A DNA stretch of 64,000 bases. It comes from a filamentous cyanobacterium ESFC-1. Lineage in GTDB: Bacteria > Cyanobacteriota > Cyanobacteriia > Cyanobacteriales > Spirulinaceae. Each line of letters opens with the position of its first letter. Position 1 is the first letter of the stretch. The notes beneath the pieces are model-generated. The model searched no databases. It saw only the letters and a program-made list of their open reading frames with translations, and was not told the DNA's origin. The stretch lies in contig KB904821.1 of NCBI GenBank assembly GCA_000380225.1, positions 3,331,631-3,395,630 of the forward strand. The letters run 5' to 3'. A program made the position numbers and the translations under genes. Positions 2,925 through 29,520 of this stretch are shown here, in pieces.

Positions 2925-3533
2925 TTATGGACTCAAAGCCAGTTGCGATCGCGCCCTCACTGCCATTTCAGCGTCTTTTTGGGCTAACTGCTGCAAACGG
3001 TTCTCAATGCGCGATCGATATTCCTCGGCATTCTGCCCTAAAGCTTCTAACCCCACAATCGCCGCATAGCGCACTACCCATTCTGGGTCTTCGCACACTT
3101 GCATCAACACCTCAAAAATTTGCTTTTGAGCCGTGTTAATCTCATCTTCGCTTAATTTTGACCAATCTAGGCTTCCCAAGCCCTTAGCCGCCGCCCGACG
3201 GACGCTGAGAGCAAAATCACTCCTGGCAGCTTCGAGTAAAGTATTCAAAGCGCGAGGATCGCCAATGCGAGCCAGGGCGCGATTGGCCCAAGCCCTCGCT
3301 CCGTAGTTGTATCCGTCGATTTGTTCGAGTAACTTCGGCACTGCGACTTCCCCCAGTTGCACCAAACCTTCGACCGCAGCAACGGCAGCACCGGGGTTGT
3401 TGTACCCCAATACCTGAATCAATGTAGGAATGGCATCGGCATCTTTGGCGGCCGCTAACGCCCCCACCGCCGCCGTTAAACGGGGGGCAGAGTCGGCTTG
3501 TTCGACGGCTTGGATTAGGGGAGAAACAGTCAT
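2925..3533 (-). CDS. cpcF: Phycocyanin alpha-subunit bilin lyase, CpcF subunit
   Basis: 202 aa from the ATG at 3533 (MTVSPLIQAVEQ). CpcF and CpcE form the heterodimeric E/F-type lyase that attaches phycocyanobilin to Cys84 of CpcA. The protein is made of HEAT-like helical repeats (AIPTLIQVLG, AVAAVEGLVQLG, ALNTLLEAARSDFA). It is last in the cpc operon. The frame stays open upstream of the ATG through a GGAGGAGTGG minisatellite, giving an artefactual Ser/His-rich extension (SHSSPSSHSS) that I exclude. Confidence 0.9.
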   Translation of the reverse strand: MTVSPLIQAVEQADSAPRLTAAVGALAAAKDADAIPTLIQVLGYNNPGAAVAAVEGLVQLGEVAVPKLLEQIDGYNYGARAWANRALARIGDPRALNTLLEAARSDFALSVRRAAAKGLGSLDWSKLSEDEINTAQKQIFEVLMQVCEDPEWVVRYAAIVGLEALGQNAEEYRSRIENRLQQLAQKDAEMAVRARSQLALSP

Positions 3534-25107: not shown

Positions 25108-25363
25108 AAAATAGGCGCTTTGCGTCCGGGTTTTTGGCAGAAGACAACTATATTCTCGACATTGTACGCGATCGCCCCTGTTTCTTTCCGATACTACATC
25201 CCTCGGAGTCAGCTTTTCAGGGCTTCCCAAACTGATTTCAAAAAATATTGCCGATCCTCTTGACACTCGTGTAATATGTTTGTAGTATGTTTACAGAAAC
25301 AAAAATTAAATCAGTTCAATAAACGCCAACTTTGGCTCAAACCTCATTACAAAGTAGAGGTGA

Positions 25364-25567
<204 letters not shown>

Positions 25568-25577
25568 GAAAAACTTT

Positions 25578-25723
25578 GCCGCACCCCAACATTAAAAGCT
25601 TACATACTACCGTCTACGAAACGGAAGGTTGTGGGTTCGAGTCCCGCCATCGTCACTTTTTTTAGACGATGTAGCTCAAACGGATAGAGCATTTTATGAA
25701 ATGGCTTTTTCAACTTGTGCGGC
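25578..25723 (+). ncRNA. Y-RNA-like element A with circularly permuted tRNA-like module
   Basis: Closing stem GCCGCAC (25578-25584) / GTGCGGC (25717-25723), then conserved CCCAAC and ACTT in the internal loop, then inner stem AAAAGC (25594-25599) / GCTTTT (25704-25709), then TTACATAC. Inside, tRNA parts come in permuted order: anticodon-arm-like hairpin CCGT-CTACGAA-ACGG (25610-25624; loop as in tRNA-Arg ACG), T arm GTGGG-TTCGAGT-CCCGC (25631-25647), acceptor 3' strand CATCGTC (25648-25654), 10-nt loop, acceptor 5' strand GACGATG (25665-25671), then TA and D arm GCTC...GAGC (25674-25690). Bacterial YrlA-type Y RNAs are known tRNA mimics of this kind. Confidence 0.75.
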
Positions 25724-25744
25724 TCTTATTTTTCTATTTAGTCT

Positions 25745-25922: not shown

Positions 25923-26056
25923 ATTCGCGTCCCAACTGACAAAGCTTACACGCATTTAGAGCAACTTGGTAGCTCGTTTGATTTAGCATCAAAAGGTTAC
26001 AGGTTCAAATCCTGTAATGTGTACCACAAACTACAGCTTTCTCGACTTACGCGAAT
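25923..26056 (+). ncRNA. Y-RNA-like element B enclosing a complete linear tRNA-like module
   Basis: Closing stem ATTCGCGT (25923-25930) / ACGCGAAT (26049-26056), internal loop CCCAACTGAC / CTCGACTT, inner stem AAAGCT (25941-25946) / AGCTTT (26035-26040), then TTACA. In contrast to elements A and C the enclosed tRNA is in normal order (25950-26026) with an intact acceptor stem and CCA. The outer stem therefore brackets both tRNA ends. Confidence 0.75.
25950..26026 (+). other. Linear tRNA-like sequence, apparent anticodon UAG, encoded CCA
   Basis: Acceptor ACGCATT / AATGTGT (7 bp with one G-U), TA at positions 8-9, D arm GAGC-AACTTGGTA-GCTC, G26, anticodon arm TTTGA-TTTAGCA-TCAAA, 5-nt variable loop, T arm ACAGG-TTCAAAT-CCTGT, then A-CCA. 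UAG would read Leu CUA, but tRNA-Leu should have a long variable arm, and the base after the anticodon is C where a purine is expected. More likely a mimic or an odd tRNA than a normal decoding tRNA. Confidence 0.55.
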
Positions 26057-26102
26057 CTTTATTTCAAAACCATGACCTGTCTCAACTCACAATAACAAAA
26101 TT

Positions 26103-26249
26103 ACCGCGCCCCAACCCGCAAAGCTTACACACATTAAGTTTACCCATCATCGTAGGTTCGAGTCCTACTAGCTGCGCCTTTTATGCAGCTATAGCTAAGG
26201 GGTTAAAGCAATGGGATTGTGATTTTTTAGCTTTACTTACTTGTGCGGT
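26103..26249 (+). ncRNA. Y-RNA-like element C with circularly permuted tRNA-like module
   Basis: Closing stem ACCGCGC (26103-26109) / GTGCGGT (26243-26249), loop CCCAACCCGC / ACTTACTT, inner stem AAAGCT (26120-26125) / AGCTTT (26229-26234), then TTACACAC. Permuted tRNA order: anticodon-stem 3' strand CCCAT (26143-26147), T arm GTAGG-TTCGAGT-CCTAC (26152-26168), acceptor 3' strand TAGCTGC (26169-26175), 9-nt loop, acceptor 5' strand GCAGCTA (26185-26191), TA, D arm GCT...AGC (26194-26209), A, and anticodon-stem 5' strand ATGGG (26211-26215) pairing CCCAT. The RNA ends thus leave through the anticodon position. Confidence 0.75.
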
Positions 26250-26359
26250 TTATTTCATTTCCAGATTTTACCTAGAAATACGAAAACAAGGCTTTATTTC
26301 AACTCTAAGACCGTAAAATATGATGAGAAGTTTAGTTTAAATTTGACAAAATATTCTAT

Positions 26360-26480
26360 TTCGCGCCCCAACTGTGAAAGCCTACATACTAGCCTAATGG
26401 TAAAGGCACTTGACTCATAATCAAGCGAATACGGGTTCAACTCCTGTGTGTGACACAACAGCTTTCCAAACTTGCGCGAA
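26360..26480 (+). ncRNA. Y-RNA-like element D with linear tRNA-like module, anticodon CAU
   Basis: Closing stem TTCGCGC (26360-26366) / GCGCGAA (26474-26480), loop CCCAACTGTG / CCAAACTT, inner stem AAAGC (26377-26381) / GCTTT (26461-26465), then CTACATAC. Linear tRNA-like 26383-26454: D arm GCCT-AATGGTAA-AGGC, anticodon arm CTTGA-CTCATAA-TCAAG (CAU), T arm ACGGG-TTCAACT-CCTGT. The acceptor (TACATAC / GTGTGAC) pairs only over five positions and no CCA follows, so it is degenerate as a tRNA. The conserved TACATAC motif doubles as its acceptor strand. Confidence 0.7.
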
Positions 26481-26515
26481 TCCCTCTTTTAAATTTTAGT
26501 TTTCCCAATACATTT

Positions 26516-27232
26516 GTGAGCGAACATCGATTAGACAAAATCATTATCGAACGCCCTCGCTATGGCTCTCGTGATAAAGCCAAAAAAGTGCAAGGCTATC
26601 GTAAACGACTTGATAAAATCACCCAAGAAGCACAAGAAGATGGCTTTTTACAACCCTACTTATTCAAACCTCGAAAAACTCGCCACTTATCCGATAATCT
26701 TGCGCCTTTATATCGCTGGTTGCGTTCCAAAGTCGGGCAACCCTGGGACGATGTTTACAGCCAACTCTGCCAACAACTAGATACTAAATCTACCATTGGA
26801 CAGCACGTTCTAGAGCATCTTTGGCAAACCGTCGAGCGTCATGTCGAAATCAGAAATAATCAAATTTATGCCAAACATAAACCCAACTATCCCTTAACCT
26901 CTGGTCAAACTCATCCCAAATTTTACGTTCATCCCGAAACTGGAATATTTTGTATAGCACCCCGCAAGCAAAAATCCGAAACTCAACCCCAAGATGACGT
27001 AGTAATTGTTAATCGCTATCAACAATATCGCCGGATTGATAATATTTGGTATTTCGTTTCTTTTCGAGATGTGAAATACTCCCCCAAAAATACAGAGCGA
27101 GACCTTCTTGCCAACCGTATTCTTGACCCTTGGGAAGCCCGTAAACTCTACGGCAAACCCATTTCCGCGTACCACAAAAGACACGCCACCAAAAAAGAAA
27201 TTAAATCTCTCAAAAAACAACAGAAATGCTAA
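26516..27232 (+). CDS. Basic conserved protein of the Ro60 locus
   Basis: 238 aa from the GTG at 26516 (VSEHRLDKIIIERPRYGS). A start at 26450 would place 22 codons inside RNA element D, so I reject it. Arg/Lys/His-rich, no TM, no signal peptide. Recognisable blocks are ERPRYGSRDKAKKVQGYRK, LSDNLAPLYRWLRSKVGQPW, DDVYSQLCQQLDTKSTIGQH and a C-terminal DPWEARKLYGKPISAYHKRH with a Lys-rich end. I recall similar uncharacterised proteins with a GRPWDKVYSEI-type block beside TROVE genes in planctomycetes, but cannot check this. Probably RNA- or ribosome-binding, by charge and context only. Confidence 0.7.
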   Translation: MSEHRLDKIIIERPRYGSRDKAKKVQGYRKRLDKITQEAQEDGFLQPYLFKPRKTRHLSDNLAPLYRWLRSKVGQPWDDVYSQLCQQLDTKSTIGQHVLEHLWQTVERHVEIRNNQIYAKHKPNYPLTSGQTHPKFYVHPETGIFCIAPRKQKSETQPQDDVVIVNRYQQYRRIDNIWYFVSFRDVKYSPKNTERDLLANRILDPWEARKLYGKPISAYHKRHATKKEIKSLKKQQKC

Positions 27233-27309: not shown

Positions 27310-27675
27310 ATGAGCGCAAAAGTATTGTCGATTATCGAACAAATGAAAACCTTAACGCTGTGGGAAGCCACCGAATTAATTCATCAAATCGAAGATACTT
27401 TCGGTGTGAGCGCCTCCCCGGTGCATCAACAAATCAAAAATCACTTGATTGAAACCCCCAATCTTTACGATGTTATTTTAGAAGCCGTTCCCAAAAGTAA
27501 GAAAAGCGCTATTATCAAAATCGTTTGGAACTTCGCCGGAGAAGGGTTAAATCATGCCCGTAAACTGGTCGAATCTGCACCCGTTTTGATTAAAAAAGAT
27601 GTCGAATACCGACGCGCTTTCGCCTTCAAACAGCAACTGGAACGTTTAGGCGCAACAGTTACTTTACACCCGTAA
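27310..27675 (+). CDS. Stand-alone ribosomal protein L7/L12-like protein
   Basis: 121 aa, the size of bL12. Residues 1-40 resemble the dimerising N-terminal domain (LSIIEQMKTLTLWEATELIH, FGVSASP), the hinge is short, and residues 55-121 match the C-terminal fold (YDVILEAVPKSKKSAIIKIV, GLNHARKLVESAPVLIKKDV, LERLGATVTLH). The true rplL normally sits in the rplKAJL cluster; here it lies between a Ro60-locus gene and RNA elements, so this is a paralogue. bL12 recruits translational GTPases to ribosomes. A similar contact role in an RNA surveillance complex is an inference. Start is supported by GGGGAGGTGAAACC. Confidence 0.75.
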   Translation: MSAKVLSIIEQMKTLTLWEATELIHQIEDTFGVSASPVHQQIKNHLIETPNLYDVILEAVPKSKKSAIIKIVWNFAGEGLNHARKLVESAPVLIKKDVEYRRAFAFKQQLERLGATVTLHP

Positions 27676-27763: not shown

Positions 27764-27881
27764 GCCGCACCCCCATGCACGGGACTTACATACCTTCGAC
27801 CAAAACTACGGTACGCTTACGAAGAAAGCGTTGCAAGCCTGAGACCCATAGCAGGCATACAGTCCCGCCGACTTGTGCGGC
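27764..27881 (+). ncRNA. Y-RNA-like element E, no tRNA module
   Basis: Closing stem GCCGCAC (27764-27770) / GTGCGGC (27875-27881), identical to element A. Internal loop CCCCATGCA / CCGACTT, inner stem CGGGACT (27780-27786) / AGTCCCG (27861-27867), then TTACATAC. The interior has hairpins such as GCCTG...CAGGC (27837-27856) but no T loop or acceptor stem. It shares the scaffold with A-D but carries another apical domain. Confidence 0.65.
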
Positions 27882-27922
27882 TCATCCCTTGGCAATCTCA
27901 GAAAAATAAATTAGCAACTGTC

Positions 27923-27993
27923 GCCGCGCCCCCACCCAGAGGGCATACATACACCTGTAACGTGTTTCCCAACGCCCCCTAAACTTGCGCGGC
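27923..27993 (+). ncRNA. Y-RNA-like element F, minimal form
   Basis: Shortest element, 71 nt. Closing stem GCCGCGC (27923-27929) / GCGCGGC (27987-27993), CCCCAC on the 5' side and AACTT on the 3' side of the internal loop, inner GGGC (27941-27944) / GCCC (27974-27977), the ATACATAC motif, and a small apical hairpin ACAC-CTGTAAC-GTGT (27951-27965). No tRNA-like part. It ends 75 bp before the Ro60 start codon. Confidence 0.6.
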
Positions 27994-28005
27994 CTCAATC
28001 TTTGA

Positions 28006-29520
<1,515 letters not shown>

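Follow-up and report, generated by a model that had tools for sequence, protein, structure and literature searches.

The stretch of DNA analyzed here (the window) spans 64,000 nucleotides (nt) of the 5.6 Mb genome of the filamentous cyanobacterium ESFC-1 (contig KB904821.1, positions 3,331,631 to 3,395,630) and harbors, on its forward strand, an operon in which six Y-stem RNAs (elements A to F) are interspersed with protein-coding genes, the last of which encodes a divergent protein with a predicted Ro60-type fold (Table 1). The subject of this analysis is element B, for which it was confirmed that a linear transfer RNA (tRNA) cloverleaf lies within a two-part outer stem, above chance expectation. 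ARAGORN identifies exactly two tRNAs in the window, one in B (TAG) and one in D (CAT), and the Rfam tRNA model RF00005 scores them at 62.6 and 51.2 bits, respectively, against a cut-off of 29. An earlier note on this DNA had described B as a canonical linear cloverleaf with an encoded CCA, and both programs bear this description out. The acceptor stem of B (ACGCATT/AATGTGT) comprises 7 bp including one G-U pair and is followed by the discriminator A and CCA (26023-26026). Its anticodon UAG, short variable loop and C37 in the anticodon loop had also been read correctly, as seen on re-reading the sequence. The lower outer stem pairs ATTCGCG with CGCGAAT and the upper one AAAGCT with AGCTTT, and the minimum-energy fold of B holds both parts (z = -3.46).

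A covariance model of the linear RNAs (R2), built from 48 relatives with the sequences of the window left out, retrieves B at 94.6 bits (E about 5e-23) and element D, which is likewise nested inside a two-part outer stem, at 124.6 bits (E 6.4e-31). The same model finds A, C and F and, weakly, E. Elements A and C are permuted, in agreement with the earlier reading. The Rfam YrlA model (RF02553), with a gathering score of 69 bits, yields a sub-threshold match to A (38.7 bits, E 3.2e-6) and no match to B or D. The two further Y-like RNAs, E and F, were absent from the earlier note and were identified with R2 and by folding.

Table 1. Features of the Y-stem RNA operon, in window coordinates.
Feature	Position	Strand	Basis
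Promoter: TTGACA 25260-25265, TGTAATAT 25270-25277, TGTAGTAT 25281-25288 overlapping the -10	25260..25288	+	Sequence; published TrcR site
Small open reading frame (ORF), 66 aa, ending IIRPEAVYG, first in the operon	25367..25567	+	Homologue in 81/108 Ro upstream regions and in both phage loci
Element A, Y-stem RNA with permuted tRNA (YrlA-like)	25567..25735	+	Rfam YrlA, under cut-off; R2 48.7 bits
Element B, Y-stem RNA with linear tRNA-like domain	25923..26056	+	ARAGORN, Rfam, fold, covariation, R2
B lower outer stem, 5' strand (partner 26050-26056)	25923..25929	+	Fold; the homologous 10-bp helix covaries
B upper outer stem AAAGCT, 5' strand (partner 26035-26040)	25941..25946	+	Invariant or covarying helix 2
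Linear tRNA-like domain of B; anticodon TAG 25984-25986, CCA 26024-26026	25950..26026	+	ARAGORN; RF00005
B upper outer stem AGCTTT, 3' strand	26035..26040	+	Covariation
B lower outer stem, 3' strand	26050..26056	+	Fold, covariation
Element C, Y-stem RNA with permuted tRNA arms	26092..26261	+	R2 39.1 bits; sequence
Element D, Y-stem RNA with linear tRNA-like domain 26383-26456, apparent CAU	26349..26492	+	R2; ARAGORN; Rfam
ORF without assigned function	26450..27232	+	Homologue in 47/108 Ro upstream regions
Second ribosomal protein L7/L12-like gene	27310..27675	+	Pfam PF00542 and PF16320
Element E, Y-stem RNA, X4-class payload	27764..27881 (about)	+	R2 18.6 bits (weak), fold, relatives
Element F, minimal Y-stem RNA without tRNA	27919..27998 (about)	+	R2 36.5 bits; sequence and fold
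Divergent Ro60/Rsr-fold protein, HEAT-like helices and VWA	28069..29520	+	AlphaFold, Foldseek, structure alignment

Relatives of B were collected through the Ro-like protein, for which a search of 386 cyanobacterial genomes gave 29 positive ones. To these were added 80 more Ro loci from named genomes; some genomes are present in both collections, and identical sequences were merged. Up to 7 kb upstream of each Ro gene were scanned for a motif at either end (5' and 3') combined with a pairing rule, resulting in 266 Y-like RNAs (249 distinct), and the counts of promoters, small ORFs and other ORFs given here were taken over 108 Ro upstream regions. Linear RNAs, defined by an ARAGORN tRNA inside the stem, number 121 in 80 loci and are nearly all cyanobacterial. 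The covariation test was applied to an alignment of 50 of them (A2), in which pairing is satisfied in 95.4% of cells. The lower outer stem, 10 bp long in A2, shows compensatory changes at nine of its ten pairs, and the anticodon, T, D and acceptor helices covary along with it. The covariation score of the whole structure is 0.434, versus 0.197 for shuffled alignments (none of 500 reaches the observed value), and controls with slid partners remain at or below 0.125. The motif TACA[TAC][AG]C follows the upper stem in 240 of the 249 distinct Y RNAs, in every payload class, as opposed to 1.7% of shuffles; the acceptor of B departs from it. On the 3' side, A-C-U-U is invariant in A2 and accompanied by a covarying stem, and the YrlA consensus likewise has AcUuG, while B reads ACUUA by way of a C-G to U-A change. 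The basal stem, internal loop and 3' ACUUG-type motif of bacterial Y RNAs are therefore all found. In several of the collected RNAs, linear as well as permuted, the T loop is split by a palindromic insert (GGTACCCTNCGGGAA...) resembling a small dispersed repeat (L090 -2698, L118 -729, L132 -862, L133 -519, L139 -862). Copies of the system were also found on a viral contig (L155) and in a 595-kb phage genome (L212, LR756511.1), both with the small ORF, linear Y RNAs (R2 84.5 and 89.5 bits) and a Ro protein about 48% identical. The viral contig encodes many tRNAs besides and contains a group I intron match.

The neighborhood expected of a bacterial Y RNA is likewise present, with the Ro60-type gene 2 kb downstream of B. 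The nearest named relatives of its product are found in Spirulina sp. CCY15215 (80%) and an unclassified cyanobacterium (78%). Pfam TROVE (PF05731) matches neither this protein nor any of 20 family members, and no canonical TROVE gene was found in the genome of the window. The AlphaFold model (predicted local distance difference test, pLDDT, 74) consists of HEAT-like helices followed by a VWA domain. All its Foldseek matches at E≤0.001 are Ro60 (E 2e-8 to 1e-6), and in a second structural alignment the top ten are Ro60 entries including Deinococcus Rsr (Z 17.6-19.4 over 415-437 residues), followed by isolated VWA domains (Z 12.3). The protein is thus predicted to possess the HEAT-ring and VWA fold of Ro60. 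Co-occurrence was assessed in 373 genomes with a covariance model (R1) at a threshold of at least 98 bits, on a scale on which ordinary tRNAs reach about 60 bits or less. Linear Y RNAs were detected in 22 of the 26 genomes with this Ro and in 2 of the 347 without it (Fisher p 2e-29). The four Ro genomes lacking one comprise one in which the contig stops just upstream of the gene and three with a truncated or broken Ro. Canonical cyanobacterial TROVE loci were also searched for linear Y RNAs, and none above 31 bits with a stem was obtained. Canonical TROVE genes adjoin large tRNA arrays in some genomes of the phylum (L196-L200), and several genomes have a large tRNA array immediately upstream of the cluster of Y RNAs and Ro (L119, L112, L043).

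The Y-like outer stem that had been suggested around B is hence not incidental: it covaries among the aligned relatives, adjoins a gene for a predicted Ro60-fold protein and co-occurs with that gene. These same data bear on the notion that B is a disused relic, a tRNA gene that by chance came to lie between two Y-stem halves. Drift of the anticodon among relatives and the lower score of B compared to D on the family model would suit such a relic, whereas the strong signal of compensatory changes in the outer as well as the inner stems, the occurrence in 80 loci, the tight association with Ro and the copies on two phage contigs would not, and we regard it as very improbable.

A more serious alternative, put forward in the earlier note, is that a functional tRNA is freed from a Y-like precursor. 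According to this proposal, RNase P and 3' trimming would release from B a tRNA for CUA or CUN codons, and the stem would protect it or delay its processing. The high tRNA score of B, above the RF00005 cut-off, its 7-bp acceptor and its encoded CCA speak for release, and make B the family member for which it is hardest to exclude. So do the stress tRNA arrays present in the genome of the window and the widespread U33 (102/108, 94%) and purine 37 (104/108, 96%), frequencies similar to those of ordinary array tRNAs, which indicate that the loop is still tRNA-shaped. Degenerate anticodon loops, considered as an argument against decoding, were rejected on these grounds. The absence of CCA was likewise set aside as a weak argument, given that B has one and that a generous count places a CCA near the expected position in 38 of the 121 linear RNAs; CCA is not kept in the family. 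What argues against release is the manner in which anticodons and acceptors are combined. The 121 linear RNAs present 35 kinds of apparent anticodon, including CUA, which would suppress amber codons, nine times, and yet 111 of them share one of two 5' acceptor strands (TACATACT in 92, TTACATAC in 19). Conservation of the anticodon and identity elements, as expected of orthologous tRNAs, was not observed: within a single orthologous group the anticodon varies among UAG, UAA, CAA, UGA, CUA, GAA and others, and the counterpart of B in the nearest relative (L061) has GUA together with A33. Rather than serving as an identity element of a tRNA, the 5' acceptor strand forms a Y motif, since TACA[TAC][AG]C occurs whatever the payload, even without a tRNA. 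In addition, C37 and the class I form of B misfit a tRNA-Leu, the genome encodes a class II tRNA-Leu(UAG) of its own (L189), and the outer stem is constrained as much as the tRNA arms. Because of the 35 anticodons on a shared acceptor strand and the GUA and A33 of the nearest counterpart, release of B as a decoding tRNA appears unlikely on the basis of sequence comparison.

The linear tRNA is one of several payloads found on the same scaffold. Sister RNAs with the same 5' Y motif carry, at many loci, a permuted tRNA or a piece of 23S ribosomal RNA (rRNA) assigned to helices H69 and H70, or else sarcin-ricin loop and GTPase-centre sequence. The H69-H70 piece, which defines a class of about 31 RNAs, matches 22-33 nt of the 23S rRNA of the same genome at 81-100% identity, and in 22 of 31, as judged by a simple pattern, the sequence that precedes H69 in 23S lies at the 3' side, as if permuted. 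RNAs of this class are about 176 nt long (L035, L036, L039, L062 and others), and the Y stem apparently replaces the H69 loop. Two Y-stem RNAs were also found within a 29-tRNA array elsewhere in the genome of the window (L143). One of them (L143 7029-7252; G000 C1:1566028-1566251) carries AGTACGAGAGGA of the sarcin-ricin loop together with a segment of the 23S GTPase-associated centre (Rfam LSU 57.9 bits; BLAST 68 nt at 87%), and the other (about 2999-3137) is a permuted-tRNA Y-stem RNA amid ordinary array tRNAs. A further class, X4, is represented by element E and by RNAs at L032, L037, L045, L085 and L140, and presents a conserved payload (GCAAGCCTGA...AGCAGGC) for which neither Rfam nor the 23S rRNA of the same genome returned a match.

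Regarding the origin of the payload, the suggestion that a tRNA was captured to make a Y RNA fits a linear element (L034, -531) that retains a long variable arm, as in class II tRNA-Leu(UAG), beside the D and anticodon arms common to its group; this arm supports tRNA capture. The possibility that B is a captured initiator tRNA, raised by A11-U24 in its D stem, was rejected, as the closest tRNA to the core of B in the same genome is tRNA-Pro(UGG) and the initiator ranks only fourth. The evolutionary series from linear to permuted elements, also advanced previously, is not supported as stated, since most loci contain elements of both types as well as RNAs with rRNA pieces. Their coexistence instead suggests separate captures on one scaffold.

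Among the proteins encoded between the RNAs, the product of the ORF that follows D has neither a Pfam nor an NCBIfam match, and since its open frame overlaps D at the 5' end, the true start is probably located downstream. The L7/L12-like gene is 45% identical to the other copy in the genome (G000 C1:5140015) and has homologues in 22 of the 108 Ro upstream regions. The operon is preceded by a promoter of the form TTGACA-N4-TGTARYAY-N3-TGTAGTAT, which occurs on the sense strand in 45 of the 108 Ro upstream regions and on the reverse strand in none; the tRNA array that houses two Y-stem RNAs (L143) is preceded by a like promoter. A sequence logo of 248 regions upstream of individual Y RNAs presents no clear -35 or -10 box, which favors transcription as an operon. 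In Anabaena, TrcR binds a TGTAGTAT-type site over the -10 of a tRNA array and represses the array, rtcB and other genes, and translation inhibitors lift this repression (PMC10272220). Erythromycin strongly induces a TROVE gene in Chlorogloeopsis (PMC6424891), and in coculture TROVE increases along with RtcB (PMC11423583). Given that the promoter matches the TrcR site, the operon is probably expressed when translation is inhibited.

Taken together, the computed structure and covariation of B, the co-occurrence with Ro, the shared 5' motif, the Ro60 fold predicted for the neighboring protein and the promoter match point to B as a likely un-permuted tRNA-mimic Y RNA of a stress-induced, divergent cyanobacterial Ro60 ribonucleoprotein (RNP). 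The outer stem would be the handle gripped by the Ro60-fold protein, and the payload a captured, un-permuted tRNA acting as a mimic instead of a decoding tRNA. Translation inhibition would lead to production of the operon with its six Y-stem RNAs, and the stem held by Ro would then display the tRNA fold (elbow and anticodon loop) to tRNA-handling proteins. Several considerations weigh against this interpretation. With U33 and a purine at position 37 conserved, the anticodon loop could still be ribosome-competent, and B has a good acceptor and an encoded CCA. The transcript, its binding by Ro and the partner are all inferred. The AlphaFold model is of moderate confidence, the TROVE genes of the two expression studies may be canonical TROVE rather than members of this Ro family, and TrcR control is putative, being deduced from the promoter match.

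Assuming that B is a mimic held by Ro, two modes of action may be envisaged. In the first, to which we would assign slightly less than an even chance, the RNA would serve as a decoy or competitive inhibitor against tRNA- and rRNA-cleaving or -modifying enzymes under translation stress, as has been proposed for the tRNA-like domain of YrlA with respect to an anticodon nuclease (PMC7790460). In the second, which has a smaller yet appreciable chance, B would be a tether or specificity adaptor, its tRNA fold bringing to Ro an enzyme that binds tRNA, or an exoribonuclease, for the degradation or repair of structured or damaged RNAs. The Y RNA of Deinococcus, which tethers Rsr to PNPase (PMC8394870), and the presence of rtcB within the TrcR regulon (PMC10272220) are in line with a tether, but a tether alone leaves the variety of payloads unexplained (two tRNA kinds and several 23S regions), and this variety slightly tilts the balance toward the decoy. 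More tentatively, the set as a whole could amount to one Y scaffold with exchangeable payloads that copy vulnerable sites of translation RNAs (linear and permuted tRNAs, 23S H69-H70, the sarcin-ricin loop with the GTPase-associated centre), released by a translation-stress switch as Ro RNP decoys against RNA-cutting or ribosome-targeting attackers, and of which huge phages would carry their own version.

The tRNA-bearing Y RNAs of the literature covered here are of the YrlA kind, permuted in Rfam, whereas the present family is large and retains an intact linear tRNA fold. No earlier description of linear Y RNAs was found in full-text searches, whose coverage excluded the main YrlA papers, which may mention them. 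The family points to a general role of Y RNAs as scaffolds on which copies of translation RNAs are presented. It also connects Ro60 with a stress switch known from work on Anabaena, and it makes the purpose of the tRNA domain of Y RNAs a testable question in culturable cyanobacteria. With YrlA, the system shares a Ro-type stem with a 3' ACUUG-like motif, an adjacent Ro60-type gene and mimicry of the T and D arms of tRNA. In the Rfam alignment, YrlA is permuted (T arm, closed acceptor, D arm) and its Y stem occupies the position of the anticodon arm, an order found in A and not in B or D; B instead keeps the usual order of a tRNA, anticodon loop included, and its Y stem is joined at the acceptor end. 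Judging from these features, B is not YrlA, and its most fitting description is that of a Y-type RNA bearing a tRNA mimic in un-permuted form. The Y RNA and Rsr of Deinococcus radiodurans (RYPER) are similar in that a small RNA, paired with a ring-shaped Ro protein, touches a further factor at its distal end, as B is proposed to do, and the predicted fold of the window protein matches Deinococcus Rsr (2nvo) with Z 19.2. The two proteins differ in that they are only 14% identical and the window protein is unmatched by Pfam TROVE. The TrcR-controlled trn operon of Anabaena (PMC10272220) has the same promoter type, and the 29-tRNA array with two Y-stem RNAs is such an array; the Anabaena array, however, consists of ordinary tRNAs, whereas the RNAs of the Ro locus are mimics mounted on Y stems. 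Finally, B resembles tRNA (RF00005) itself in its cloverleaf, elbow sequences, anticodon loop and CCA, and the linear family differs from it in being nested within an outer stem, in using one acceptor strand across anticodons and in not keeping CCA, a distinction of practical consequence for annotation, as ARAGORN and Rfam count linear Y RNAs as tRNA genes.
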